Part shown: piece after piece, positions 10,652-63,880 of the stretch
How the letters are laid out: the number at the start of each line of letters is the position of its first letter
How positions within the stretch are numbered: the stretch's first letter is position 1
From: Patiria pectinifera
Taxonomy: Eukaryota; Echinodermata; Asteroidea; Valvatida; Asterinidae
Assembly: GCA_029964075.1 (NCBI GenBank)
Contig: CM057135.1
Location: 22,346,863 to 22,410,862 of the forward strand
Length of the DNA: 64,000 bases
Direction: 5' to 3'
Notes under the pieces: model-generated
Database searches by the model: none
What the model was told of the DNA's origin: nothing
The model's input: the letters and a program-made list of their open reading frames with translations, nothing else
Position numbers and translations under genes: made by a program

Positions 10652-11175
10652 TTATGGAGGTGACTAACCATCTTGTCCAGGAGGATATTTTTGGGCGGGA
10701 CATATGGAGGTGACTGGCCATATTGGCTAGGAGGATTTTTTTACAAGGGAAATATGCAGGTGACTAACCAACTTGGCTAGGAGGATATTTTTAGAAGGGA
10801 ATTATGGAGGTGATTAATCCTCTTGGCTAGGAGGATATTTTTTAGAAGGGATTTTTTGAGGTAGCTAACCATCTTGGCTAGGAGGATATTTTCTAGAAGG
10901 GAATTATGGAGGTGACTAATCATCTTGGCTAGGAGGAAATTTTTTAGAAGGGAAATATGGAGGTGACTAATCATCTTGGCTAGGAGGATTTTTTTAGAAG
11001 GGAAATATTGAGGTGACTAACCATCTTGGCTAGGAGGATATTTTTTAGAAGGGAAATATGGAGGTGACTAACCCATCTTGGCTAGGAGGATATTCTTTAG
11101 AAGGGAAATATGGAGGTGACTAACCATCTTGGCTAGGAGAATAGTTTTTAGAAGGGAAATATATGGAGGTGGCCA
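10652..11175 (+). repeat. minisatellite, about 50-bp unit x 10.4
   Basis: The unit reads roughly 'aatatggaggtgactaaccatcttggctaggaggatattttttagaaggg' in two halves: ATGGAGGTGACTAACCAT then CTTGGCTAGGAGGATATTTT. Ten units of 49-52 bp are countable, plus a partial eleventh. Units 6-10 are most alike and units 1-2 most diverged, consistent with growth from the right side. An open frame on the minus strand across it is only a product of the repeat. Confidence 0.95.
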
Positions 11176-13214: not shown

Positions 13215-16200
13215 ATGAATTTTGCCTTTCTTCAATAGGTCATTAACCACAAAAGACTTTGAAACCATAGAGGACATCCCACTCAATAGTCCTTTTTGCT
13301 GTTGTGATGAAAATCCGAGCATGTGCACACCCATTTATGTTACATACCAAGTGTGGACTTTCCATTGCTTTCGTGTAGTTAAGAAAAACCAGTAACAAAA
13401 AAAATCATTTTTCTCGAACTGTGAAAACTTATTTAAATTTTTTTGTATGATTCCCTTTAGTGTTTCTCTTCATTCTGCCACAGATAAACTTAACCCAAAA
13501 ATGACTCTAAACCTGTTTTCCAGAAATGGGGAAACACTTTGTGGACTTGCCCAAGTCCAGGCAACGGTCGCCTCTACCTGGTTTATGTGGACCTCTTTTA
13601 TTCGGAAGTCCACACAGTGAATGTAATGCCTACCCACACACACACATTCCTTTTCTACATCCCTATGGAGACTTCTTTTGTTTTTCCTTTGTTCTTGTAC
13701 TTAACATCCTCTCATAGACTTTGTACATAACATTTCTTGTGGAGCATCACTGTCTTTAGAATTCCCCTGTGGAGACCAACTGTTCTTGCCTTTCCCTTTT
13801 TGTTGTAAGACTCCACAAAGTAGCGAATATCAAATCACATGGATTTACAGGGGTACCGCATTGTCACTCCCATTATCCCTTTTCTAGATAGCGGCTTCCG
13901 AGCTGGGTCAACCGAAACGCAAGCACGCAGACTGGTTCGACGAGAACGACCAGCAAATAAAGGCCCTCCTGGAAGAAAGGAGAATCGCACATCAGGCCCT
14001 CCTGACTGGTCGCCGGACCAGGCAAGCAACCAAGCGCTACAATGATATGAAAGCCAGAGTCCAGAGAGAGCTGCGAGCCATGGAGGATCGATGGTGGCTT
14101 CAGAAGGCAGAGGAGATCCAGAAGCTCGCCGACTCGAACGATTCCAAGGCTTTCTTTGCGAGTCTGAAGGAAGTCTATGGCCCGCAATCCACTGGTTCCA
14201 CACCAATTCTGAGTGCCGACGGTATGGTCCTTCACACAGAAAAGACGGCAATTCTCCAGCGGTGGCGTGAGCACTTTAAAGAACTGCTGAATCGCCCCTC
14301 CAACATATCACCAGAAGCGTTTGACCAAATCAACGTGCAACCAGCTGACGTCTCACTCGATCTGCCCCCCACCAACATCGAGCTTGAAAAAGCAATTCAG
14401 ACCATGAACCTGGGACGTGCCCCCGGTACCGACAAAATTCCCGCAGAGGTCTTCAAACATGGTGGCGTTGCTCTCAGGCAACGCCTACTTGAGCTGCTCC
14501 ACAGATGCTGGGATACAGAAGAACTGCCACAGGACTTCAAGGATGCCGTGGTGGTACCAATCTTCAAGCGCAAGGGGGATCGCCACAAGTGTGGCAACTA
14601 CCGTGGCATCTCTCTACTGTCGATCGCAGGCAAGATCCTGGCCAAAGTTCTGCTCAAGCGTCTTCAGCGGGTAGCGGAAAGGCAACTCCCTGAATCTCAG
14701 TGCGGGTTCCGTGCCGGACGCGGCACCTGCGACATGATCTTCACACTCCGACAACTGCAGGAAAAGTGCGTCGAGCAGCAAAGACCTCTGTACGCAGTGT
14801 TCATCGACTTTACAAAGGCCTTCGACACAGTTGGACGCGATGGCCTTTGGAGACTCCTGCAGATGTACGGTTGTCCTGCAAAGTTCACAACACTTGTTCA
14901 GCAATTTCACAACGGTATGATGGGATCGGTAACACAGGCAGGAGACACATCAGAACCTTTCGCCGTCAAACACGGCGTTAAGCAGGGCTGTGTTTTAGCG
15001 CCGACGTTATTTACCCTGTTTCTAACGGCAGTTCTCCAGGTCACGAACCAGCATCTGGATGACGGCGTCTACCTGCGAACTCGTTCCGACGGAAGGCTGT
15101 TCAATCTGGCGCGTTTGAAAGCACTCACAAAAACCCACCTCACCTTTATTAGAGATCTTTTTTATGCCGATGACTCAGCTTTCGTTGCTCACTCTGTCGA
15201 AGCCCTGCAGACCATCTTGGACCGTTTTGCACAAGCTGCCAGGGCCTTCGGCCTGACAATCAACCTCGGGAAAACGGTAGTGCTCCACCAACCGTCACCA
15301 GGAGACCCCTATGTAGCGCCAAATGTCACACTGGAAGGGACCACTCTGGAGGTTGTCGAGCAGTTCTCATATCTTGGCAGCATCATCAGCAACGACAACT
15401 CCCTGGACGCAGAACTCAATAAACGGATTCAGGCCAGCTACGCTGCCTTCGGTCGGCTAAAGGATCGGCTTTGGAAACGAAGGGGGATCCGACCAAGCAC
15501 CAAATGCAAAGTGTATCGTGCGCTTGTGCTGAGCTCCCTGCTGTACTCGGCGGAGACGTATACCCTGTACAGACGGCACGTCAAGAAGCTACAGACCATT
15601 CGGCAGCGCCACCTCCGGTCTATTCTCAACATCTCATGGTGGGATCGGGTTACCAACGATGAAGTGCTGCTTCGAGCGGGCATGCCGAGTGTGGAGCACA
15701 TGTTGCTGAAAACTCAGCTCCGCTGGACTGGGCATGTCGTGCGAATGGAGGAGCACAGACTGCCGAAGATCCTCCTGTATGGCGAGCTCTTGGAATCACC
15801 CAGACAGCCAGGCAGGCCAAAGCTGCGCTACAAAGATGTCATCAAACGCCACCTCAATGCCACCAACATCTCAATCAACAACTGGGAAAATCTGGCCATG
15901 GACCGTCCTGGCTGGCAAGCTGCAACGAAAGATGGCGTCCAAACTGCAATCGCGGATACCAAGCGGCGAAATGCTGAAGCCAGACGCCGACGTCATGAAA
16001 GGCAACAACGGCGCAACTGATTTTATAGTACTCCCGAACTCTTCGATGACGAAGATCTGCCACACACACACACCGCATTGTCACTCCCATTATCCCTTTT
16101 CTATTCAATTCCTTTGTTCCTTGTGGGATACTGCTTGTACCCCACAAGTCAATGCTCTACAGGGACATACACTCTACCCACAAACCACTCAAATGCATGC

Positions 16201-18797: not shown

Positions 18798-19882
18798 GGT
18801 GTCAGGTCAACTCGCCCCCTGGCCGACTCGACCCTTACCGACTCGCCCCTTATAAGCTTACCGACACGCTAAGCTGGCCGACCCATGAACGGACGTACCG
18901 CGAAATAGACCGGTTGCTACGCGCGATAGGCCCCGGGCAATCCGCGAATATCGGTACAGCTGTGCTAATGTGTTTCCAATCCAAATTCTTCATAAAAGAT
19001 CAATAGTTTCTTGCATTTGTATCAGAAATCCTTCAAAAGTGGCGTTTGAATAATTTGGCTCCATTGGGTTTTATGCTACGATCAGGCAATGTGTTCCCGC
19101 ACTGTCGTTATTATTTATGTTTTTGGAAGATGTCCTTGTAAGGTGCTTAATTTTCCAAGGAGCGAGTCGGTCAGGGGTGAGTCGGCTAGGAGGGGAGACG
19201 GCGAGGGAGCGAGTTGGCAAGGAGGATTGACCAACAAAATTAGTATTGTTTCTTAGTCCCCGATTCATGTCTTAACTTGCTAAATTACGCCCATCCGCCT
19301 TTTATTAACCAATCCAACATGGCGACCAGCAGCATGCAGCTGCAAACGAAACTTTAATAACTTAAACTCGGTCATGTCGGTGCAGCAGCTCCGTCATGTC
19401 CGTGCGTTGTGCTAGTACAACGAGTCCGTTTAAAGAGTCCAATAATACCAATGATGGCCTTACCTACGCTGTTTTACTTAGATGATTGGTGAGACGAATC
19501 AAAATATTTCACAGAAAATCTTGACTAAATGACAGAATTTTCTTTGCTCTATGTGGATATGCGTTGTATACTGTACGAAATGTACGAACATCTGATCTGG
19601 GAACTACTAAGTATAGTGCGCATGACCCTCCGCGGCCAGGGGGGCGACGTACGGCAAATGTCAATATGCGCCAAATCCACACAACGACCACGGCGCACAA
19701 GACTTTGTTTTGCCCCCAAATCCACAGCATCACAACGGCACCACAGGGAGTCGGGCAGGGGGCGAGTCGGTAAGGGGCGAGTCGGTCAGGGGGGGGGGGA
19801 GTCGGTCAGAAGGCGAGTCGGTAAGGGGCGAGTCGGGCAGGGGGCGAGTCAGCCGGGGGGGGGGGCGAGTTGACCTGCAACC
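18798..19882. mobile_element. 1085-bp TIR element inserted in T1, 8-bp TSD
   Basis: The ends are GGTGTCAGGTCAACTCGCCCC and, inverted, GGTTGCAGGTCAACTCGCCCC. CCGGCAAG is duplicated exactly at 18790-18797 and 19883-19890. GCGAGTCGGT(C/A)AGGGG and its complement recur many times near both ends and again at about 19160-19225. It has no transposase. The 8-bp duplication fits hAT, P or Sola-like families; the terminus does not identify which. Confidence 0.88.
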
Positions 19883-20194
19883 CCGGCAAGCTAACGTCAT
19901 GAACGTTTATTTTAACTAGGCTTGTAACTGCTAAAGGTTTGCCGTGTCCGGCAAAATATCCACTGCCAAACATTAACCATGGAGGTAGAATTAGAATCCC
20001 CAGGAAGACAACTGCAACCGGTACGACTCATTTTGGGTCACTTAGGTGACAAACAGAAACTAAAATAGTAAATACGGCCATACAATTTATAAATACAATT
20101 ATATTTACCAGGTTTTCCGTCTCCATGTTCGTGCACAGGTAGGCTAGGTTGTTGTAGCCGCGAGGCTGAAGATATTGCGAAGGAAGTTCGCGCT

Positions 20195-20422: not shown

Positions 20423-20862
20423 CATGTCGTCAATATTGGCGTCAATATTGGCGTAAATATTTGCGACTTGGGGGCCATGTCGTGAATATTGGCGTCAATA
20501 TTGGCGTCAATATTTGCAACTTAGAGCCCAAGTCGTGAATATTGGCGTCAATATTTGCGACTTAGGCTATGTCGTGAACATTGGCGTCAATATTTGCGAC
20601 ATGGAGGCCTTGTCGTGAATATTGGCGTCAATATTGGCGTAAATATTTGCGACTTGGAGCCCATGTCGTGAATATTGGCGTCAATATTGGCGTCAATATT
20701 TACGACTTGGAGCCCATGTCGTCAATATTGGCGTCAATATTGGCGTCAATATTTGCGACTTGGAGTCCATGTCGTGAATATTGGCATCAATATTGGCGTC
20801 AATATTTGCGACTTGGGTCCATGTCGTGAATATTGGCGCCAATATTTATATGCGATGTCCCT
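20423..20862. repeat. two-level satellite array
   Basis: About nine units of roughly 40 or 53 bp, each built from CATGTCGTGAATATTGGCGTC, one or two further copies of the 13-mer AATATTGGCGTCA, then AATATTTGCGACTTGGAGCC. Units differ mainly in whether they carry two or three 13-mers, so the array grows at two scales. Open frames across it encode only repeated peptide and are not genes. Confidence 0.93.
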
Positions 20863-21177: not shown

Positions 21178-23458
21178 ATGGCGTTTATGCTGCTGCTAGA
21201 CAGAGAAGCTGGCCGGGCATTACGCCGAGAAAGATTGTTTGGAGAGCGTAGACCGCGTAGATGCCCGCTTGATTCTTTGACGGGCGATGAAATTTATAGA
21301 CGCTATCGTTTCACCAGAAATGGAATTACACAGTTATTAGAGAGGGTTGAACTTGAACTAGAACACGATACCAAGGTAATTAATGCGACGAAACGTATAT
21401 ATGTATATTACTATAGGCCTAAGCCTACATACAATTATTATGATGAACTTATATAAGGAATACTAATTTAAAAAAAACCATAGCAAACGTTATAATTAAG
21501 TAACGTACGACTAGGGAAAAGTTTAATGTGGCTAAAGTGTATAGCGCCACCGTTCGTTTACTGAAGAATATTTCAACATGGCAGCGTCCGTACGGACGCA
21601 TTTATTAATAGCATGTTTAGTCGGCCATGTTTAGTCACCTACTTAGTTTTAGCTCCATGGTTTTATCATTTAAACACTGATCCAACCTATAAAGTATTTG
21701 CTGCTCAATGCTACAAACACTGGACGGAATCAAAGCTAAGTTCCTCTTAACTAAATTAATTTGAGTACATGCCGTTCAAACTTGAGTGAGGAGGGGAAGG
21801 TTTTAGGGAAGTACAGGCGCTGGGGCTAACGTATAGGCATGATAGGCCAGGCTTTATAGCCCCATAAATGTGGCCAATTTAATTTACTGGACTACCTCCG
21901 TAAATAATGGCCACACTTCCACCATGTACAAAAACATGTCGAACTTTGTCAAAGTTTAATTTTCGGCAGTGTATATTTTGCCGGAGACGGCAAACCTTTA
22001 GTAAACGTTAGTTTGCCGGATATGCACTGAACATGCGCAGTTACTGTTTTTTTGTACTTAAACATTTTCCGGTGACAAGTTTTAGTCTGGCTCCATGCCA
22101 AAATTATCGTTGTTACCTCGTATTCACAAGATGGGATTCAGACCATTTTATAATTTCGGACTTTATTTCCCTTTTAAAAAAAATCCTCCAGAGCCACAAA
22201 TCTGAAAAAGAAACTGTAATACTCTGCAAAAAATGTTTGAGGCATGTTAAAATAATAAAAGAAGAATATTCTTATTTATTTGGGGATGTGAAAAAAAACC
22301 TGTAAAATGTGGTGCGGTCGGAATCGAACGCGAGTCATCCTGATCACTAGAGCCTTTGCTTAACCATTACACCAAACGTGCTACACAACTTTTGGTGGGA
22401 ATTTAATACATCTTATAATTCAGCCCTATTTTAAAGAGTACAGCGCCCTCTGTTGATATGGATTGCCGCCGGCAAACCTTTAGTAATCGTTAGTTTGCCG
22501 TAATTACCTCCGGCAAAATATCCACTATCTTAATGTTCACAGTCATGACAGTAAGGCTTAGTTTGTAGTTTATTTTTGCTTTAGAACTTTAGAAGCATAC
22601 TCACCATGCTCACCATCCATTAGTTGCGATAATCGTAACCCACCATCCTCCCGACCGGGAGGATACTTACTACTGCACCATGCAAAGCCTAAAATCTTAT
22701 ATTAGAATCAATGACTCAAGGAAGCTGGCTGAGTTAATAGAATCTAATTAAAATCATGTTTGACGTGAACAACATAAAATTGTTAACCGAATCTTCATTT
22801 TCAGGCTGCAAGGTATGCTCATAGGTGATTCAGCATATGCCCTCAGACCTTGGCTTATGACACCAATTGAGAACCCCATAACAGACGCTGAAAGAAATTA
22901 TAACAGGTAATGTGATTCACACTATTTGTCCACAGTTTTTTTAAATAGGGGCGGGAGCTTTTGATGTGCTGAACTATACATGTACATGTATATTTGTGTG
23001 CATTTTTTTTCACTCTCATGGGGGGGGGGGGTGGCAGAGTTCTGAGAATGAGACTCCCTCACCCCTCTGGCTAGGCCACTGAGTAATTTAAAGGTTGAAT
23101 ATTGTATAGAAGGTGTAATTCATACTTGTTATATCTCCGATTGACTTTGACTCATGCCATATTTGTTTATTTTCCCAATTAAAGGTGTCACAGAAGAACA
23201 AGGGTCAAGGTGGAGCAAACGTTCGGTCAACTAAAGCGGAAATTTCCATGCCTGGCACTTGGTCTCAGGGTATCACCCAGTAGAGCATGTCAAATCATCA
23301 AGGCTTGCTGCGTTCTGCACAATCTAGCCAAGATCATGGGTGAGCCTGATTTTGAGGAGGAAGTAGAAGTTGAGGAGGTTGGGGCTCTGCCATATGTTGG
23401 AGTACTCCATGATGGTCAAGCACATAGGGAGCGTATTATTCGTCAGTATTTTAACTAA
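21178..23458 (+). pseudogene. Harbinger transposase, central part missing
   Basis: Exon 1 (21178-21375) starts MAFMLLLDREAGRALRRERL, contains LTGDEIYRRYRFTRNGI and ends at GTAATT. Exon 22805-22906 encodes GMLIGDSAYALRPWLMTPIE after TTTTCAG and ends CAG/GTAATG. Exon 23185-23458 encodes RTRVKVEQTFGQLKRKFPCL and ends TAA. The Asp of GDSAY and the Glu of KVEQTF are separated by 35 residues, the usual D35E spacing of the second and third catalytic residues. The piece with the first catalytic Asp is not found between 21376 and 22804, where a tRNA-carrying element now lies. The N-terminal exon and the last two exons are intact in frame. It acts as a DNA cut-and-paste nuclease in this family; this copy cannot be active. 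Confidence 0.85.
21967..22527 (-). mobile_element. tRNA-carrying miniature transposon T1, copy 2
   Basis: This 561-bp copy has ends CAGTGTATATTTTGCCGGAG and, inverted, TAGTGGATATTTTGCCGGAG. It is oriented opposite to copy 1 and shares its inner landmarks. The tRNA-like block reads on the minus strand: A box TGGTGTAATGG (22364-22374) and B box GTTCGATTCC (22320-22329). The flanking 8-mers do not match, so the duplication has decayed or the ends are off by a few bases. It sits in the intron or gap of the Harbinger transposase. Confidence 0.82.
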
Positions 23459-24859: not shown

Positions 24860-26228
24860 TTAGGACTCGGATACGATTACTGCACCGTGCTTCTCCAGTG
24901 TAAATGCCACTAGTATTTGAAAGGAATGGCTAATTTCCTTCAAGGATTCCGTCATGGCTTGTGAAGCTTCCAGTTGTTGCCGAGCTATTTTCAATTTTTC
25001 TTTGTCGATCTGCAACCTTTCCCTCTCGATTTGGAGTATGCTCTGATCTCTTGCCATCTTCTTCCTTTTTGTACTGGTGGTCTTGAACTTGCAGTGCTGC
25101 ACTCGCCCTTTTCTCTCTCTATTTCCTTCTCAACCTCCTCTGGCTCTAACTGTACGGGCTCCACCTCCTCCACCTCCTCCATATCTACATCAGTGTCGAT
25201 TGTGTCACTGCATGTGATGGCTGTAGCAAATGAGTACAATTATATCATCGTCATTTTGTTTGTTTTTACAATTCGCATTTTCCCCTTCCTAACAATGAAT
25301 TCGATAGACACATGTATTACAAATAGTCTTTAAATCATTTAGTTCAAAAATCGTCAACATGTCTTATTGACTTAAACAAAGAATAACACTATTCTTGAAA
25401 TCAGCTGTGTCTCAGACTTGCATGTCATGAAGAGAACAATTCAATATAACTATCCAATAAACACCATAGTTCATGAATTGAGTGGAAATAAATACTCAAA
25501 ATATGTAAGGAAAGAATATTAGTATTTTGAATCAGGTTTTTGTCTGAAGTGTTTTCTCAGTTGTTTTCAAAGGCTTTAAATATCCTACCTTTTTCAACAC
25601 TGCCTAGCAGAAATTCCAAGTCTGGCATTGTTTCGCCTTCGTATTTTTCCACGATGCCATCTTTGCCCACCGGTAGCAGGGCATCGAGGACAAGCTCGTA
25701 TGTCGAGTTTACTGGTGGTTTAGGACCCCCTCCTGAAAATAAGCGAGAGAGCATTGTTATTGTTATTCGAATTGAAGACTTCAAATAATCTTGTAATCTT
25801 GTTAAATGCATTCATGCAATATACTTGAACAGAGTTGAAAAAACTCGAGTTTTGTTATTGTTGAAAATGTTGAAAATGTTTGTTAGCATCAGAGTCAAGG
25901 GCAAAACCTAATATTGAATCAAAAAGTTATTTGAATGAATTTCATTACCTGTTTTGTTGATCTCCCGATGGTAGCTCCTCGCCTGGCTTGAGATATCTTG
26001 CCATTTTTCACGTACTTTGGTCCAGTCCCTTAGTTGGCCCCCACACTCATTCAGCTCATCTGCCGCCATCTTCCAATGATCTTTCTTCACTTTATCTACC
26101 TCAGCTGTAGCCTTGCAGCGTGTGCCAAACAATTTCGCTGTATGGCTCTTAATGAACTCGGCCAGAATTTTGACCTCCTCATGAGACCAGTTCGCGGCTC
26201 GCTCAGGAGGAACTTTAGTCTTAGACAT
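24860..26228 (-). pseudogene. Harbinger Myb-like accessory protein
   Basis: Three minus-strand exons with good splice sites. 25949-26228 begins MSKTKVPPERAANWSHEEVK, contains the Myb/SANT-like tryptophans (W of NWSHEE, W of DHWKM, W of RDWTKVREKW) and ends CAG/GTAATG. 25589-25732 encodes GGPKPPVNSTYELVLDALLP. 24860-25220 starts CSDTIDTDVDMEEVEEVEP and ends with a coiled coil, QIERERLQIDKEKLKIARQQ. A one-base shift separates the acidic part from the coiled coil. In this family the Myb-like partner binds transposon ends and brings in the transposase. It converges with the transposase gene, as expected. Confidence 0.82.
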
Positions 26229-26234
26229 GACTAG

Positions 26235-27060
26235 GCCTATTTAATGTAAGTTTGTGAATGACAGCAATCCAAATGCTGACAGACGGTTGCACACGCCCCA
26301 ACTATTGCAAACACAATTTTTTATCATCATTAACAGATTTATATTATTCCATTTTTCATGTTTTGAATTTTTGTTTTGTTTTACATTTCAATTTGTATGT
26401 AAAACTACTTGGCCCTTGTGTTTGTGGACTCTATTTATTTTTAAATATTTTAATCATAATTCTGAGGTGAATATTGTAACCCCCCCCCCCTCCCAATTTT
26501 ATGGACATGGTTTTTTTTTTTTTTTAAATTGAATACAAGTTTCTTGTTTTCAGAATGAAGCCCTGGTGACGATGGCTGGGAGTAGTTAGAGGCCTATTTT
26601 ACATTAGCCAGCATAGGGCTGAAGCCTAATGTAACCTGGGAAAATATCAGGTTTTTTATCACTCAGTCAAGTTAAGTTTGACTTTGAGTCTTGACTCAAT
26701 AATTAATAATAATATGGTCGAAATTCTGCCTGTGCTGTGACTACTTTATATAGTAGTAAGAGAAAAGTGGTGGTTCTGTGAAGTATGTCCCTTCGTAAGT
26801 TCGTTTTGATTTTGGTGAAAAGAACTGGGGCTTTAGCCTAAATCGCTTTAACTATCGCTAATAATAAAATAAGTTAAAATCTTCTCATTTAACTTCAAAT
26901 TTAACCCCAACCGGAATACGTACTGAATGTGAATTTAAGCCGAAAGCGTGCAGACAACCGACTGACAGAAGTTTGGATGCATTGCAGTCTTTAACTGGAT
27001 ACTCTTTGACTAGGACAACAAAGTTTATCGCTGTAAATATCACTCAGTAGGCCTACTTTA
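26235..27060. other. non-coding part of Harbinger copy 1
   Basis: No gene is seen. A C-run and long T-runs occur at 26480-26525. The sequence lies between the Myb-like start and the right terminal region. Confidence 0.4.
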
Positions 27061-36502: not shown

Positions 36503-38343
36503 TTGAGTCGCAACATCGAGTGCGTCTGTGGTGTACGTGTATATGAATCACTGTGTACACATGGAGCCAACGGCAACGTGCAGCAGCATGAACGTCAACG
36601 AAAGTGGGGGAGGTCTAGGGCCAGTAATTGGTCTCACGAAGAAATAAAAGTGTTGAGTGAATTTGTGCGGGCCTATAAACACCAGCTTATGGGTACGAGT
36701 AGCAAGTCCACAGCCAATGTGGAGAAGGTTAAAATCCACTATTGGAAAATGGCAGGGAGAGTATTGGTGGAAAAAGGAGGGGTGGAGCGACCATGGAATA
36801 AAATCAGAAAAAAGTGGCAAACCATCACCAGTCAAGCACGGTCGTACCATAGAGAAATAGAATGTAACAGAACGGGTAAGCTCATTAATTAAACAAACGT
36901 TTACGTAATATTTTATTTTTAACTTGTATTTGGGGGGGGGGGGGACTGGAAGCGATTGTCCTTCATCATAGTTTGTACATATACATGTTGCCCTCGCACC
37001 ATGGATCAGTTACGGAAAGAATGTTCCATCCTGACGCCACTTTCTCATTGTATTTTATTCAATGAAGATCAGTCCTTGCAAAACTGTTCAATAGGCATGA
37101 ATTTTGCGCTAGAAGACATGTTTCAAATACTTTGAAAATGCATTCAACTCTCCATAGACTTTGTACACAACAAAATTAGTGGCGACGGGATAATACATGC
37201 TTTCTTCTGCATTATTCATGCAGTCTCGACCCCAATAGTCATCCTTTTGTAATATTATATAACCTAGCTAGGCCTCTCACATAAAAAAAAACTTAACATG
37301 CCGGTAAACTGTTATGAAGGTGGAGGGAAATTGTACAATGGGTCCATTGAACTTGCAACACCAGCATCTGACAAAGTGAAACAGATGCGTCCTGCGATGT
37401 ATTTCACAAACCATGTCGTAAGTGCGACACGTCGGAGGTGCATTTATAGCATAACTTGGTGACTGTTTTATGTATTTAATCAGTGTACAGTAAATAGTCG
37501 TCTGATATTCAACAAAGAGTCATCGGATCTCCACTACAAATTTGTTAAAATGTAAAACAAAATGGAGGCCGTGTGATGCAATTTTAAAGGAAAACAAGCT
37601 CTCAGGGGACTGTTCAAGTCCCAAGTCTGGCAGGTCGAGTCCGAGTCACAAGAGACTCCGGTCGAGTCTGAGTCGCGAGTCGCCTTTAAAAGTTATTTGG
37701 GGAAAAAATTGAGGTACTGCTAAAACCACTCAATGTAAATGTTTCCATTTTTTCAACAGCTTTTCTCTTATTTAATGAACTGGGTATACATACAACTAAA
37801 ATGCTCTTGGAATCTGAAATTGTTCAAGTAATATTAACTTAGGTTTAATTCAGCACTGAAGGAAAAATTTTTGCAGTGAAAATACAAACGAATGACATTG
37901 TATCAAAAGTATTTACATAAAAGAAAACGTATGTACAGTAATTCAATACATCCTGGCAATTAGTAACGACTCTTAATTTAATGAATGATTTCCTAATTGT
38001 TTGTATTCAGTTTTAAGCAAACATTTTTGTGTGTTTTTTGTTTAAAGCCATCAGTTTAGGTGAAGTCGCACTTGCTGAGTCCAACCCGGCCCCTCCATCT
38101 GAGGAAGCACATCATCGACATCCAGGAATTGTTCAAGAATCAGAGGAAGTGACAACAAAAACCACAAAGGTGGACTCCATCTTGGAGATAGAGAAACAGA
38201 AGCTGGCGCTGGAACATGAGAGACTTCAGGTTGCTAAGGAGCAGCTGGAAGTTAGTAGGCAGATTTCAGGTTCACTGGGTGAAATCAGCCACAACTTCCA
38301 ACTGTTCCTTTCCAACCTGTTGCTGAGGGATCAAACTAATTAA
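36503..38343 (+). pseudogene. Harbinger Myb-like accessory protein, copy 2
   Basis: The first exon (36503 to about 36875) encodes ASNWSHEEIKVLSEFVRAYK, the W-based Myb/SANT-like fold, then KIRKKWQTITSQARSYHREI, and ends at GTAAGC. The last exon (38048-38343) follows TTTAAAG and ends with a coiled coil (EIEKQKLALEHERLQVAKEQ) and GEISHNFQLFLSNLLL. Both align by eye with copy 1 (NWSHEEVK, SQARSYHREI, SLKEISHSFQIL). The middle exon equivalent to STYELVLDAL was not found. The ATG is uncertain: the frame is open upstream of the conserved part. It is still open and less damaged than copy 1. Confidence 0.75.
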
Positions 38344-52548: not shown

Positions 52549-53321
52549 ATCATGGATGCAGATACTGAAAGAGAGTTTGAAGATTTCTTAAAGATGACAA
52601 AAAAGAGCTGGTGGACTGCTTATCAGCTAGGAAATGCTGCACCACAGGCTAAACAGGTTCTCGTTGCAAGGGATTTTGTTGCAAAGGAGAACAAGGAACC
52701 CGTCAAGGCGTCTGACGAAGCACACCAAAAAACCTGCCACGCCAATACGGAGTAAACTTAAGGGGGCTTCCAGATCCCCTGAGCATCCCTGAAGACAGGT
52801 GGTCTGAAGACGTCAGCAAGTGGCCTGTAATCGACCTGGGCAAGATTTTCCAATATATTTTGGAAACAAAAGATTTTAACATAGATTACGTCGGCAAGTA
52901 CAAAACCCACAAGGCATACTCGTACTTTGCAAGCAAGTTTGGTGGGCCAGTAAAATGGGCGGCAGTTGAGGATGACTTTAGTTTCCTCAAGTGTTCAGTC
53001 ACTCCATCACAGAGCGTCAGGGCTGAATCCCACCAGGTATGGGTACTTGCCAACCATGATGGCACCCTACTGTCCTCGTGGTGCTCCTACATCGCAGGTT
53101 ATGGGAAGACCTGCAACCATGTGATTGCAGTTCTCTATAAGGTGGAGTTTGCAGTGACAAATTCTCTGAATACACCTTCGGGCACAGAGAGTAGCTGCCA
53201 ATGGAATAACTCCACTCAGCAAACCATCGAACCCCCCAAAAAAATCGAAGACATGGATTTCCGAACCGACACATGCAGTATGAATGGAAAGAAAACGTCA
53301 GTATCGGGAGATCAAGTGTAG
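52549..53321 (+). pseudogene. SWIM-domain protein of the YqaJ-recombinase type, truncated
   Basis: Downstream of TCCTTTGCCTAG the frame starts MDADTEREFEDFLKMTKKSW. A one-base loss in an A-run near 52727 moves the frame; the downstream frame then reads NLPRQYGVNLRGLPDPLSIP, YKTHKAYSYFASKFGGP and VWVLANHDGTLLSSWCSYIA, with the SWIM zinc-binding pattern C-Y-I-A-G-Y-G-K-T-C-N-H-V-I-A near 53085-53130. It ends after WNNSTQQTIEPPKKIEDMDF with TAG at 53319. Many invertebrate multi-copy proteins have this arrangement before a YqaJ nuclease domain, some within ISL2EU/Harbinger-type transposons. The nuclease part is absent here. An open frame at 53441-53638 follows but is not recognised. Confidence 0.7.
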
Positions 53322-53666: not shown

Positions 53667-54013
53667 CTGTAAACCATGTGTTTAGGTTTAGAACACCTAA
53701 ATAAACACTAATCTGTGACAGTTTTTAAAAATGTGACCCAGTTTATCCAATGAACATGTTTAATTTGAAAATATATTTGGTGTTTAAAATCAGCACACTG
53801 ACGGTGTTTAATCTTTAAACGGAACAGTGTTTAAAATATATACATCAAAGGCGTTTAACATTTCAATACTACTGACGTTTAAAAAGTAAACACACAGTCA
53901 AAAAGAAAACACGTCAATCTGTTGTTATTTTAAACATGTGACCCGTTTATTGCCTGTGTCAGATTTTAAACATGTGACGCCATTTATATATTGACGTGTT
54001 TATATTCACAGTG
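53667..54013. mobile_element. miniature element with GTGTTTAA repeats, copy 1
   Basis: The ends are CACTGTAAACCATGTGTTTAG and, inverted, CACTGTGAATATAAACACGTC. GTGTTTAA, ACGTTTAAA and similar motifs recur about fifteen times. Non-coding. The sequence from 54014 to 54761 is A+T-rich, without a gene, and probably holds the 3' untranslated part of the next gene. Confidence 0.65.
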
Positions 54014-54761: not shown

Positions 54762-57700
54762 TTATGTAAACTGTCGTTTAGATGCTGATAGTCTGTCTGG
54801 TTCAGCAGCATTCTGTGGACATAAACAAGATTTCTGAGTGAGCCATACAAAAACTGATCAACTTTGAAAGTGAAACCATGCTCGCAGTAAAAACAATAAT
54901 GGAGAAAAATAACAGTCATTAAATAAAGTTTACTCAAGGAAGAATAATTATTAAAACTGATTACAAAATTGGGTTCAAAGGTAAGTTGCACAATTGTCAG
55001 CCTTTTTGGGACCCACGTCAATATTAACCTATGTTATCCAAGGTAATGTGCACAAAGACTGTAAAGTTACAGTTTGCACTTGATCATGGATCAAAAATTT
55101 AAAAAAAATCTGAAGTAATTTAGGCAAGCTTTTCACAGTATCGTACATAACTTTGCAGTCATGTAGGTAAATTACGGAGACTTTGTATTTAAAATTGTAT
55201 TTTAAACCTGACTTGACTTTAGGTCACCTACAATGTTATGCTTTTTCATTTCAGGATGTTTTACCACCAGAGTAAATTTACAGTGGAAGTTGAAAGGTTC
55301 TTTTACAAGATAGAATCTCAGTCAAACATCATCATTCAATGAAATTGAAGATTTGAATAATATATTTTACAATACAAAAATACCTCATGAATAGTTAGCA
55401 CTCTCCTCGTCTTTGTATCCTCGCCACGTTTAAACTTGGTGTTCTGCTGGACGTACATGCATGCAGTTACATCGAGCATCTGCAGAGGACCCTATATTCA
55501 AAACATAAACACATGTTCTGTAAAACGAACGTTTTTGAATCACGCACTGCGGGTTTTTCAAAAGTTGTATACACAGCTGATCTAAACAATCACTCACTGC
55601 CAAAGCCAAATGACGATCAATGCCAAAAGACACTTAGCCTACCTCATATTATAAGTCAATAGCTTCCTTCATCTGCATGCAAGGGATTAGACACACCCTG
55701 AAAATATACAGACAAAAAAAATATTAAAACAATATACGCCCATATCATCATGTGAAATGGAAATTATGGTTAAAAAAATCCATTTCACTGAATGTTTCTA
55801 AGATTACAAACATTTTGACACGGCGTGTTTGCAATTGCAATTCGCACCATAGGCTATACGCCATTAAGGAGGTCTGCTCAAATGATTAGATTTAAGGGCG
55901 CAAAGAACAACCCAAGACAAACAGACAAAATCAAAACACCAGCAGTAGTCAAATTATGTTTGGTTTCATGAACTTGTTACAAATTATTTGTTTGCAAAAT
56001 CAATTACGATAGTTTTGGATCTGAATCTCAATCTAATTCACAAAACAAGTGTTACAAAAAGCATACTTTGATTCAACTTCCAGCTCTATAAATACGTTGC
56101 CAATGATAAATTGTAATCACAAAGTTTGTATTTCTAAGTAAAGTTGTCCCGGTTCCTAAGATTTCCAGGTTCTAATAATTTAATCAGGTTCCCAGTTCAC
56201 AGGTTCCTAATATTGTAATAAGGTTCCCAGTTCACAGGTTCCTAATATTTTAATATTTTAATCAGGTTCTCCGAAGTTCCCCGAACGCCCAGCTGTGTTG
56301 TGAACTGGGCATCCATATTGCACCTGACATGAAACAGTCGTATTGCAATAAATCAATGTGACACACGGTGAAAATCACCCCTTTCGTCAACATGAAATAA
56401 ACTAAAACCTAGCCCAGCGGTAGCAGAGAACTTGCATTGTGACATTAGGAAATTAAAGAATTACAAATTTCGCTCATTTGAAACTTATAATGTTGGTTTT
56501 CAAGCACAAATTTATGCACACGATAATCACACTTTGGTGTGCGGGCAGAAAAGGGCTGATCGCGTGTTCACGGCACTGAGTGCGCGTTTGTATACATTTT
56601 TCTGGGCTGCGTGCCAATTGTATGGTGCCTCGTAAAAGACGTCTCATTACATTAAGTATACACTCAATATGCACCATCCCCATAATGTGGCTCAAATACA
56701 GAACTTCCTTCATAAATATTGTGAACTGCACAGCAGTTATACTTTATAACAGCATCGTCATCCAAGAAAAGGAATATGAGGAAATCAAAATCAGGGTTCT
56801 TTTTCCCAATATTCATGTTTTATCACACGATCCCTTGGCCAATACCCTCTAATCCATCTCAATCATATTTTTAATCTATCATCCTGTATATCGGGATTAA
56901 TTAAATCAAACAACACAAAAGATAAAACTTACCACCTGTGTGGAAGCTTCCAGAACTGGTTCAAACTACAACCGTCGGACTGCATGCACAGAATACGTTG
57001 CATCTGAGTACTCTTGCTGACTTGGCAATATGCATACCAAACTTGACCTCTAGCCTAGGTCATAACCAACTGTTAATAGCTTTTGTAAGACTACATGTAC
57101 ATGTACGTATATTGTTTTATTACCCGATGCAAATGTTGTTACCACGAAGAGGATGCTAATTCTCGCCATTCCATTCTTTTATAAGTGTGGCCAGATTATT
57201 GTCAGAAAAAAATGGCGGTTTGACTTTGTGCCGCGTTATTAACTGGCCCGATTATGCCAGCGCGCAATCAGATTTAATCCTATTGGTTAAGACTTAACAT
57301 CACGTGGTCATATTTAAACATCGTGACGTGTACCGTGTGTATTAGTTTTGAACACAAACAGCTAAAATAATAACCTGAGTTATTATTAGTGTCCTAATTA
57401 GTTAATACACTTTTTAAAACAAAGTGGTACTTGTTGGGAATAAACAAAATGCTAACAACTGAAATTGAACAGTTAATACATTTTCTAAAACCGATCTCAT
57501 AATAAACACCCAATAGAACTTTGACATTAAACATTTAATGTTTTGTTTAAAAACACAAGATGTGTTTAATTTTGTCACACAGTGTTTTAATCTAAAACAC
57601 TGCGTTTATTGCTTAAACGTGTCACACGTTCTCGCGTTTTACAGTGCTGCATCGCACAGAAGACGTTGATTTAACAATGATTTGACTGACTTGCTTAATT

Positions 57701-59250
57701 GTGCTGGGTTGTAGCCGGCTGCCATGATTAGGTCATTATCCTTTTCTTGTGCTATTACGAAAGTTTCAGAGTGTGATGTTATTGAACAGATCATGATGAG
57801 CATTATTATGGCGTAAATCGAAGACTTTCAATTGTTTCTCTTCCCCTTTCCTTTTTCTATACTCTGACAATTGTTGCAACAGCTTTATTTCTCTCTTTTC
57901 TTTTAGATAAAGACTGAAATGATGGCGATCGTACAACATCATCGGATAGGTATATGTGATATATAGCAAACAATAATTCGTTGCGTGCCCGGCAGAAGGG
58001 AATATGTGCATATGCCCTTATGCAATAGCGCGTAATTACCAAAATATTCCCAGCAAAAGGGCATATTCAGAAAAATGACTCTATTTGAAATGTAAACATT
58101 TATTCAGAAATTTATACAAGTTGTTCCAAAACTTATGAATCATACATGTGACAAATTTCAAATTCGTACGATTTATATTACATGTGGGAGAACCTTGGAT
58201 TCATAATACGCGCGGGGGAACAATGGAACCTTTCAATGCAATTTTCTTGAAAAATATTTTTGCGTCAGAACGCTCATATGCCCTTCTGCCGGGCACCCGA
58301 CGAATTATACTAAACAACATCGATTTTAAATGAGTTCAATTAAAATTCTTACCTCTACTATTGATGCCACGAAATAATGAGCACCGACCCCTAGCACCGG
58401 CAACAGCTCCTGGGGAAGATCAGTTGGGGGTGGTGGCAGGATGGGGAACATCATATGGCCTGCCTCTCTACAACAATGAAATATATTGAAGGCTAGCGAT
58501 TATCTTTTTTTTCCAGTTTGCTGTAAAAATATCACCTTTTGCTCAACACCGTATTATCGTTTATGGGCGTAAGCAAAATGTTGGAATGATACAGTATGTC
58601 TTTAAAACGACAGGGAAAGTCAAAATCAACCAAACTCCCAATCAATGAATCACGGTAGCAGAGAAATACATGAAATAAATACAACCAACCGCCGGAACTA
58701 ACCTGGGGTGCGCCGGAGGTCAGCTGACATTTTGTTGAGGGAGCCCTCCCTCAACATCGTTAGTCTGCGCTGAGACTCGAGGCGGAGCGTTGGGTCTGTG
58801 CTGTCCATATGGGGCAGCGCAACCCCAACGGCTTCGCTGATGGTCTCACTGACCTCAGTCATCTATTTAAGAAGAGATGGACAGAATTATTTTCCTGTTT
58901 ACACATAAACAATTCGCATGAAAGAGCTCGTGAATGATTATATTACACTCTTAAACCGCAGGTAAACATTTTGTCGGTTAAAAAAGTGTTTATGTTGCCT
59001 TGAGTATTTTGTTAACCAACTGTTGGGCTGTTTACGTGTTAAATAACAGTTGGTTAAACTAATTGTATTACAAAAAGCTGGTTAAATTTACAAGAATTCA
59101 ACCAGCGTTGGATAAAATGACTAATGTTGGTTGAAAGGTCTCATTACTCTTTGATATTCATTAAGTTCAACAGTTATGTAGCAAGAAAGTTATAATAATT
59201 TTTGTTCGTACCTCTTTCTTGGTCAGACCTTTCGTATTGTTGTCATTCAT
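54762..59250 (-). CDS. five-exon host gene, about 156 residues, product unknown
   Basis: Exons on the minus strand: 59212-59250 (after TTTTTTTTCAG; MNDNNTKGLTKKE; donor GTACGA), 58703-58862 (after AAATAG; starts MTEVSETISEAVGVALPHMD; donor GTTAGT), 58353-58465 (after TAGAG; GHMMFPILPPPPTDLPQELL; donor GTAAGA), 55384-55491 (after GAATATAG; GPLQMLDVTACMYVQQNTKF; donor GTATTT), 54762-54812 (after TGTCCACAG; NAAEPDRLSASKRQFT then TAA). Every junction is phase-consistent: 0, 1, 0, 0. The protein is soluble-looking, with a PPPP turn and a basic C-terminal third, and no signal peptide or membrane segment. The first exon begins exactly at ATG, so 5' untranslated exons probably lie beyond 59.3 kb. I do not recognise the family. 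An alternative exon at 56933-57003 has good signals but breaks the phase. Confidence 0.6.
55500..57300. other. intron of the five-exon gene; short tandem repeat
   Basis: This is the intron between the third and fourth exons. At 56150-56275 a unit of about 38 bp ('aggttcctaatattttaatcaggttcccagttcac') repeats about three times. A possible alternative exon is at 56933-57003 (MQRILCMQSDGCSLNQFWKL), with donor GTAAGT. Nothing else is supportable. Confidence 0.45.
57330..57646. mobile_element. miniature element with GTGTTTAA repeats, copy 2
   Basis: The right end GCGTTTTACAGTG mirrors the left end CACTGTAAA of copy 1. The interior has GTGTTTAA, TGTTTTAA and AACACT motifs in both orientations. The left end is not resolved (possibly near 'gacgtgtaccgtgtgt'). 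It lies in the intron of the minus-strand gene. Confidence 0.55.
57973..58308. mobile_element. TIR element with GCCCGGCAGAAGGG ends
   Basis: The ends TAATTCGTTGCGTGCCCGGC then AGAAGGG..ATATG pair with TAATTCGTCGGGTGCCCGGC then AGAAGGGCATATG inverted: 33 bases with a few mismatches. The interior repeats AAAGGGCATAT. Non-coding; within the intron of the minus-strand gene, 45 bp from an exon. Confidence 0.85.
58951..59145. repeat. TTGGTTAAA/TTTAACCAA motif cluster
   Basis: GGTTAAA, TTAACCAAC and TTGGTTGAA occur about eight times in both orientations, resembling the GTGTTTAA elements in design. Probably another miniature element with unresolved ends. It lies between the first two coding exons. 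Confidence 0.5.
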
Positions 59251-59259
59251 CTGAAAAAA

Positions 59260-62080
59260 AATAAGACAGTTGTTTGAAAATAATAATTAGAAGAAAGTTA
59301 GACAGTATACTGTGATCAAAGCCAAACACTTTCATTAAGAAGATTTCTGTTCTGGCTTAAAGATTTCCTGCTTAGTTTCTATCTCGGGCGAACTGTCCGT
59401 GTGTTTGTCCGTCCAAGGCATCTCGACGCAAGCCTAGGCTTCCAGAAGATGCCTCCGCACATATCTATATTTTCGCTCTTTTTACCTTTTTGACAAACTC
59501 TATTTATAGATTATAAATTTAGTGGCGCTTTCTAAGCTTGTATTTCTCATTTTGGTGTGGAAATAAATGTGAATTTCGAATTGAATTTATAGTAGTTCAA
59601 GCAGTTGTGGCGTGAACGACAATTTGGGTCTGGGGGACGCACCCTCAGGGGATAGGAAATAAAGAGGATAGGACCTCAATTAAGTGAGGGGAGGTGTAAT
59701 CGCAAAGCCGTTTAAGTAGTGGTCAGGCGGCGCGGGGAGGCGCCAATAATTGCCACGATAATTATTTATTATAACAAATTATACTTGAGCGGCTAAGTAC
59801 AATCTGCAGAAAAATATATCCTAATATATGGGCAGATTTGACGGACAACAGTGAATAAACAATTGGACACAAGATGTGAATGAACAACAAAACAAGGAAT
59901 AAATTTATTCCGGTCCGCAACAATTAAAAGGGAAACAACAATGAACAAAATGCAGTTAACTTACTTTTGATCGCTCAGTTTCTGAGCTAATTAACTCAGG
60001 TTGTATACCAGAGTAATAAGATTACTAGTAAAATACTAGCGCTTTCCCTCCGGAGGTGCAAGTAAATTGACCAATCGGACATCCAGGAGATGTCCGGTTA
60101 GGCCTTTCTGTAATTAAAATCAGTCACAAAGCAGGACAAATTATTGCCTAGAATTCTTGTTTTACTGACAGGTAAAAAAAAAATTGTTTCTAGAAATAAA
60201 TGTTCTTACCAGTTCAGATGAATTCCTTGTGGTGGACTAAGAAGTGGTGGACTAAAATTATTACACTGGTACTAAGCTCTATGGGCTGACACAATAGAAA
60301 ATTCCTTGTGGCACCGTCGGCAGCAACCTGGCAAGTGACCCTAAACTAGACTGTGGCTACTTAGCAACCAACTGAAACTTCGCGCCACAGCGCAGCTCTA
60401 AAAAAATCGCCCAAACATGCGCCATGTATAAAGAAATACGGACGCGCCCAAAACTCGTACTCCAGATAAGCGGCGCCCAATACACGCCAACAATATCGCA
60501 CAATTCCGCGCTGCATGCACAAGTGAAATTAGCAATGCGCCCAACAAGGCGCTTGCTTTTACGCGCGGCACTGAGGTACAAAAATTACAAGGCGAAAATC
60601 TTCAACGTGAGTAAACTAATTTCCGTTACACAGTAATTAGGTTATGGATAAAAACGTGCAAGCATAACTCCCCCTAAATAAACGGGGGGAAAATGGTCTT
60701 GAAATGAATATCAATTCATGTATATGAACACGTTTTGCCATATTGTTCGCCATACTTCCAAAATACATGTTCCCAAGCACTATCATGACTATCTGCAATT
60801 ATCAATGGGATAGCATGAATCTAAATTCCTGTATCTGAATCCAAATTCCTGTATTGGGCCTATATCATTTTTTTCCTTGTCCATGTTCTTCCTAAGTGAA
60901 ATTGTTGATTTCCCTGAAGTGTTTACCATACTTTTCATGAGAGTGTGTCTATTCTTTAATTGCAGTGCGTGGGCAAACATTTCAATGCAATTTTTCAATT
61001 TACTTCCAAAATCAGTGTTTAAATGAAATACATTTGAATCGCACAAAATATAGGTCGATATTTTTTGTCATGTTTTATATCTATACCAATGTAAATCTTT
61101 GCTTGAGATAAACAGGGCAGTGCTAAAGTAAAAGAAAAATCAGTAATTACCTTCATTGATGCTAGCTCAAACTGCTTATGGTATGATAGGACTGCTTAGA
61201 ATGATAGGAATACCAAGAATATAAACCAAGAACACAATAACACAATGCGCAGCACATTACAACAAGTACATATACATGTACGCACGGGCGAGGTGACAAA
61301 CTTTAATGAGCTCTGATATCATTTCATTAACTTACAGCCAATTACATGCAGCGCTCACTGATTTGGGAAGTAATGAATACACCTTCAGCGAATACGCCGG
61401 TGACCTGATTTAGCCGCGTGCAAACAATAAACACAGTAAACAAATAACCATTAGCCAATCAGCATGCAGTACTGCGCGTGAAGAACAAGCTGCACGCGCA
61501 TCGGGCGCGCACACTAGCCAAAATTGGGTTATCGGCCGGTTATACAGTACAGTTGATCAACTTCATATTGATTAATGGTTTTATGAATATTGAAAAGTAC
61601 GTACATAATTTTTTGTGAATTATATTCATTTTTGGTTTGAATATTCACTAGAGTTGACAGCAACTAGCTGAATAAAGTTCGCGAGTGACAGGCAAATAGA
61701 CTTCCCCGTATGCCATCTGGCCGAGCGAATCGGCAACCTAAAACGCATGTATTGTTAATGGATGTGTGACATAGTCAATGTGCCCGAAGTGCAATTGCTG
61801 TCGTTTTGAATTCGAAAAGTACGTACATAAAATAGTCCAACAAGCAGGAATATATGGTTTCTACAGCAAGCAGACAAACTAAATTTACATTTGGTACAGT
61901 TAGTATGTTCAGTACCCGTTTCTTTTAGGAGTTATGGTTTCAGTAAGTCGAGGGTGTATGCAATTAGCCTATACCCATCTTTGTGTGTGAATACAGCGGG
62001 TATTTCAACTTCGATTGTTTGTAAGGAGGATGGCCATTTATTTGTTGTAATGATTGCATTGTTCATTATACGCACTTTTG
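59260..62080. other. upstream region of the five-exon gene; no coding seen
   Basis: Possible 5' untranslated exon ends: CTGAACTG/GTAAGAAC at about 60207-60222, and a short acceptor-donor pair at about 61150-61172, both on the minus strand. CpG-bearing stretches occur at 60370-60600 and 61380-61510. No TATA box can be assigned. Confidence 0.3.
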
Positions 62081-62801: not shown

Positions 62802-63880
62802 TTACCTTTGTGTTGTCAAGACTTCTTGATAAACAACATTGCTCAGAAAACGGCGCTTCTTCTTTGTCTCTTCATCTAGAACAAGAATGCGAAGCCTGCT
62901 TGATGTGCCAACCCGGCAGGCCGCCACGTAGAACTAACCGTGGCTTTAGAAGTCTCGCGTGCAGAAGACCCCAACACAGTGTAGCGACTGCCCCTGAGAT
63001 TTGTTGACGGTCATGGCAAAGCAGGGTCTCAATGGAAACTGTGGATGACGTAGAGTGAAAGGAAAGATGTTGTCAGATGGTGAGAGGGTGATGCTTGGAA
63101 TGAGGAGTGTGAGTCCAGCGTTTACACCAACCACAGATTGTGCAACCAAGAGATGGGGCAGGATTTGATTGATGAGATACCTTGACCCATTGCAGTGTCC
63201 TTTGTGCTGGTCGAAGTTCCAAAGTAGCATTAAAACCATTACCACCTTTAGAGTGATGCGATGGGGAGGCATACCAGACGGGCAGAGGGTATTTAGAATT
63301 CAGTCGGGTCAGACTCTGCTGTGTCGACACTGCTGCAGACATGCTCCTCTCCTGGAAAAATATTTGTCATGTACTCGTTAACCTCAGAGTTGGTTGGGCA
63401 CAGTATGATACGCTCACATAGCCACGTGGCGTTGGCAAAGTTGGTGTGGATGTCCTCATGCACCCAATTAACAATGTCCTCAAGTGTGTCACTGGGAAGA
63501 GTGAGCGATTTGTTGAGTTCAATAGCAAATTCACTTTCCTCTGGAACCACAGGGATTTTGCCTTCGCCAAGGTTCAGCAGGTACTTTGCAAAATGGGCTT
63601 CATCTTGTTGCTCTCCAGCAGCCTGCCTGATTCTCATGTTGTGGGTAAGACGCAAAACCTCGACGTTTCTCCACAGGTATGAGCTCTTTAAGCTCCTTCC
63701 TACTATCTCAGACAGTGCGATTGCCATGTGGCACGACGGTAAGTATCAGCCTCAAGTCACCGCTGAAAACCATTGTTATGCCACCTAATGGCTTCTGTGA
63801 AGCTCGCAGCCACTGGAATGTGCGATCTGCTGCCTCTAATCCGCGGCGGTCCATCATTGACACCTTGTCTACCACACATT
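62802..63880 (-). pseudogene. Helitron Rep/helicase, C-terminal half
   Basis: On the minus strand, in order: DKVSMMDRRGLEAADRTFQW (Walker B/motif II region, Glu replaced by Lys), GGITMVFSGDLRLILTVVPH (motif III, normally GGDFRQ.LPV), LTHNMR, the long open frame 63293-63727 with NIFPGEEH, then CNGSRYL, then FAMTVNKSQGQSLHCVGVFC (motif V), then AACRVGTSSRLRILVLDE (motif VI region) and VVYQEVLTTQR before TAA at 62802. At least one frame shift separates the 63293-63727 frame from 62946-63272, and a stop precedes the last part. This PIF1-type helicase unwinds DNA in rolling-circle transposition. The Rep nuclease would lie to the right of the window or is lost; sequence past 63880 is not coding. 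Confidence 0.88.

Follow-up and report, generated by a model that had tools for sequence, protein, structure and literature searches.

A candidate coding core, exons 2 and 3, within a proposed five-exon minus-strand gene of Patiria pectinifera

The locus and its surroundings

The window analysed here is a 64,000-nucleotide stretch of the genome of the sea star Patiria pectinifera (contig CM057135.1, positions 22,346,863 to 22,410,862 of the forward strand), in which an earlier note, made from the letters alone, had proposed a minus-strand gene of five short exons. All five pieces lie where they had been placed, with AG before and GT after each and with TAA at the end of the last; joined together, with exon 3 taken at 113 bp, they read open from ATG to TAA as 156 codons plus the stop (Table 1). 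The pieces thus exist as described, whereas two further parts of the proposal, that the splice sites are good throughout and that agreement in reading phase is evidence for a gene, did not survive analysis, as set out below.

Table 1. Positions in the window of the proposed exons and of associated features
Feature	Position	Strand	Description
Exon 1 as proposed	59212..59250	minus	39 bp, starts at ATG; peptide MNDNNTKGLTKKE
Exon 2	58703..58862	minus	160 bp, 53 codons; best-supported exon
Exon 3, TAG form	58353..58467	minus	115 bp; proline-rich peptide EAGHMMFPILPPPPTDLPQELLPVLGVGAHYFVASIVE
Exon 3, GAG form (earlier note)	58353..58465	minus	113 bp; start behind GAG
MITE-like element	57973..58308	no strand	37-nt terminal inverted repeats; in the intron behind exon 3
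Rival exon	55643..55697	minus	acceptor 5.97 bits, donor 4.66 bits
Exon 4 as proposed	55384..55491	minus	108 bp; unsupported
Exon 5 as proposed	54762..54812	minus	51 bp, ends in TAA; unsupported as coding

The arms of the MITE-like element are 89% complementary and 262 nt apart. Elsewhere, the AT-rich window contains a retroelement with a 657-codon open frame and a reverse transcriptase domain (about 14047-16020, plus strand, E = 1.4e-36), a piece of a DDE_Tnp_4 transposase (23183-23455, plus strand) and Myb/SANT frames at 25911-26240 (minus strand) and 36503-36889 (plus strand); the transposase piece and the Myb/SANT frames we take to be the protein pair known from Harbinger-type elements. Two minus-strand frames at 62949-63727 match the PIF1-like helicase and Pif1 2B domain models and are, we assume, perhaps a Helitron remnant. 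Two well-scoring coding stretches on the plus strand at 52549-53321 have no Pfam match at E ≤ 0.1, and the second of these frames, 201 codons from stop to stop, is SWIM-like as judged by eye only. Tandem arrays occupy 10653-11171 (51-bp unit, 10.2 copies) and 20573-20846 (53-bp unit, 5.2 copies). No match among 4227 families was obtained in an Rfam gathering scan of the window and a tRNA scan found none, and a bacterial promoter scan is uninformative for an animal-like genome.

Splice sites and evidence for single exons

Splice sites were scored with generic metazoan weight matrices that were not trained on this species. The donors of exons 1, 2 and 3 are strong by this measure (3.56, 4.36 and 6.09 bits), and the acceptor of exon 1, at 6.58 bits, is among the strongest in the window, with a density of 0.08 per kb per strand. 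The acceptor of exon 2 is moderate (1.24 bits, with 9% of AG dinucleotides as good), and that of exon 5 scores 3.40 bits. The description of the sites as uniformly good fails at exon 4, where both acceptor and donor are weak (0.74 and 0.87 bits), and at exon 3, where the acceptor that had been chosen, behind GAG, scores −1.43 bits and is equalled or bettered by 27% of all AG dinucleotides.

The start region of exon 3 reads ...TTGTAG/AG/AGGCAGG, with slashes behind the two competing AG dinucleotides, the second of which is the earlier choice. The TAG acceptor, two bases upstream, scores 2.46 bits and is 3.9 bits better, but it places exon 3 out of phase with exon 2, and reading then stops right behind ERQAI. 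Phase agreement at all four junctions therefore holds with the GAG acceptor, whereas at the better sites it is confined to three of the four and the break falls between exons 2 and 3. Such a loss of phase at the best sites is what a decayed gene would show, and it was counted against an intact gene.

Internal-exon candidates that do not overlap one another were ranked on both strands by combined splice and coding score, with the coding model, whose amino-acid frequencies are generic values, run at four settings; two blocks were left out, the reverse-transcriptase block at 13.7-16.3 kb and a GC-rich block at 39.9-42 kb. Exon 2 ranks between first and fourth among the 253-254 candidates outside these blocks, and exon 3 ranks sixth in its TAG form and 11th to 18th in its GAG form. 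The two lie on the same strand, 235 bases apart, and this proximity of two top-ranked candidates argues against GC-rich patches that carry splice-like flanks by chance. The score of exon 2 is reached outside the blocks by one cluster of internal candidates, exon 2 itself, and by five when the blocks are included; for the TAG form of exon 3 the corresponding numbers are six and 12. The six comprise exons 2 and 3, three clusters at 25.6, 26 and 43 kb, of which the one at 26 kb matches Myb/SANT models, and one that overlaps a tandem repeat. When terminal exons are counted as well, exon 2 is surpassed by a stretch at 19640-19919 that carries repeats.

The coding score taken alone is modest: when each exon is compared with the window's open stretches of its own length, 1.3% of these score as high as exon 2 and 6.5% as high as exon 3, and the scores of exons 1, 4 and 5 are reached by 7.1%, 9.0% and 39%, respectively. 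Exon 2 has a GC content of 60% against a window mean of 39.7%, and 160-bp segments that reach 60% GC make up 0.46% of the 5926 outside the two blocks and 1.36% in the whole window. By combined splice and coding score, exons 2 and 3 rise above background as single exons and exons 4 and 5 do not. Each of exons 2 and 3 is stop-free in one frame and is followed by a strong donor, which speaks against the remains of a pseudogene, as does a tblastn search of the window for paralogous exons, in which no second copy was found (best non-self E = 2.5).

Exon 1 scores 13.9 bits as an internal exon, and as an initial exon its score is a common one (0.875 per kb of real minus strand). Since it stands directly behind a very strong acceptor, a leader exon upstream is probable, and exon 1 is probably internal and not the first exon of the transcript. 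Upstream donors of at least 3.0 bits occur at 61151, 60210, 59965 and 59643, the first of which would add an in-frame ATG-AAG.

Phase-consistent chains and the 3′ end

The earlier note had held that phase agreement across four introns is unlikely by chance. With sites at least as strong as the weakest acceptor and donor of the proposed model, exons of at least 30 bp and cross-junction stops ignored, the region holds 763 phase-consistent five-exon chains. Of 40 dinucleotide shuffles, 26 contain at least one such chain (the median being 79 chains), and among 26 real segments matched in length 23 do so (median 757.5 chains), contradicting that claim. Because there are three possible phases and many sites, the agreement is mostly a product of choosing; phase agreement over several introns is thus weak evidence wherever many sites are available to choose from, and the ease with which such chains arise by chance lends some weight to the view that no gene is present.

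Scores of whole chains speak in part for coding sequence. The best chain in the region by splice and coding score reaches between 35.3 and 72.6 bits for two to six exons and exceeds all 300 dinucleotide shuffles at each of these exon numbers. Shuffled sequence makes a lenient null, since the composition of real sequence is uneven, a point that also favours chance: the five-exon chain has a median of 36.3 in 50 overlapping real segments, against a shuffle mean of 7.9 in which shuffles without a chain were entered as −50. The 64.87 of the proposed chain is reached by five of these 50 overlapping segments, two of them covering the reverse-transcriptase block, two from the minus strand at 37.6-44.8 kb and one from that strand at 23.2-28.0 kb. 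A rival five-exon chain that ends in the exon at 55697 scores slightly higher than the proposed one (65.96); it also needs a weak additional exon, 2b. This exon 2b (58599-58536, 64 bp) would preserve the frame if exon 3 were spliced at its TAG acceptor, but was rejected on its score of 3.2, which is too low.

The exact five-exon gene, with the GAG acceptor and a 156-residue protein completed by exons 4 and 5, has in its favour the open frame from ATG to TAA and the standing of its 3′ end. There, exons 4 and 5 are the best completion by an internal and a terminal exon within their own 3.75-kb stretch, and their score is reached by just 21 of 300 shuffles; it is, however, equalled or exceeded in 50 of 87 control stretches of real sequence, which overlap one another. 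These controls leave out both repeat blocks and, above 54.5 kb, the minus strand, and they still contain other element pieces. Exon 4 ranks 29th to 50th of the 253-254 internal candidates outside the blocks, and real sequence beyond these blocks holds 0.27 candidates of its grade per kb-strand, against 0.036 in shuffles. Exon 5 has a coding score of −0.08 bits and a GC3 of 0.12, and thus no coding signal, and terminal phase-0 exons comparable to it number 2.9 per kb of minus strand. The rival exon has a far stronger acceptor and, serving as the terminal exon behind exon 3, runs to a TGA at 55656. Polyadenylation signals give no decision on the 3′ end, the first minus-strand AATAAA below exon 5 lying at 53951, about 0.8 kb beyond it. 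The proposed exons 4 and 5 are most likely wrong, to judge from these comparisons, and together with the weak acceptor of exon 3 and the higher score of the rival chain this makes the exact five-exon gene a very improbable reading.

Relatives, predicted fold and readings of the locus

The statement that the product belongs to no known family holds for the four collections searched. The spliced peptide has no match among PDB sequences up to E = 10; no Pfam family was found at E ≤ 1, whether the query was the spliced peptide, exon 2, or exons 3 and 4 joined, in a scan whose HMMER filters remove most hits weaker than about 0.1; and none of three pattern matches in IMG/VR and none of 38 in GTDB contigs were confirmed, by tblastn in the case of IMG/VR. 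Pfam, PDB, IMG/VR and GTDB contigs are ill suited to the search for relatives of an animal-type gene, and the statement reaches no further than these collections. A 15-residue string of the peptide sought in the literature gave no match.

Structure prediction, which had also been proposed as a check, was applied to exon 2 alone, as a single sequence without an alignment, and yielded two helices at residues 2-19 and 24-50, with a mean pLDDT of 77.9 and a pTM of 0.52. The control, a single open intronic stretch of equal length and unmatched composition (56580-56738, plus strand), gave 55.3 and 0.27, respectively. Foldseek returned 116 matches to the exon 2 model at E ≤ 10, and among the best 50 of these none reached E ≤ 0.001, the best having E = 2.2. 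The model is read as a generic helical hairpin.

On balance, we favour the reading that exons 2 and 3, and likely exon 1, belong as internal exons to the 5′ part of a real, ordinary spliced protein-coding gene on the minus strand. Coding spliced sequence is accordingly retained from the original proposal for exons 2 and 3, with exon 1 plausible, and the specific five-exon gene of 156 residues is not. The transcription start would lie upstream, within 59.3-61.2 kb, and at least one leader exon would be spliced onto the strong acceptor in front of exon 1. Exon 2 would supply a hairpin of two helices and exon 3 a linker rich in proline, and the frame between them would be kept either via the downstream GAG acceptor or via an unseen small exon in between. 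Judging by composition and the one single-sequence fold, the product might be a small adaptor or complex subunit and not an enzyme. If the core is real, it represents one more ordinary uncharacterised gene, and the ranking of each exon by splice and coding score is what separates its likely part, exons 2 and 3, from the unsupported part, exons 4 and 5.

An origin by chance, with GC-rich patches between splice-like flanks and no gene at all, seems unlikely to us given where these two top-ranked candidates stand. We also consider it improbable that exons 2 and 3 are what is left of a gene, duplicated or of mobile-element origin, whose frame has been lost: several element remains lie in the window and the better acceptor of exon 3 does break the frame, and against this stand the open exons, their donors and the missing second copy.

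A more specific version, to which we give very little credence, is an as yet unannotated, lineage-specific gene whose exon 3 has overlapping TAG and GAG acceptors, such that the choice of splice site switches the product. If true, one product would be a short peptide that stops some five codons past the start of exon 3, and the other a longer protein with the proline-rich segment. The candidate gene at large, under any of these readings, resembles taxon-restricted (orphan) spliced animal genes in its short exons, short peptide and lack of a recognised Pfam domain. It also resembles tandem 3′ acceptors of the NAGNAG type, known for wobble splicing, in that two AG dinucleotides compete at exon 3; unlike in those, the spacing here is two bases, and switching acceptor changes the reading frame, where the NAGNAG type gains one residue.
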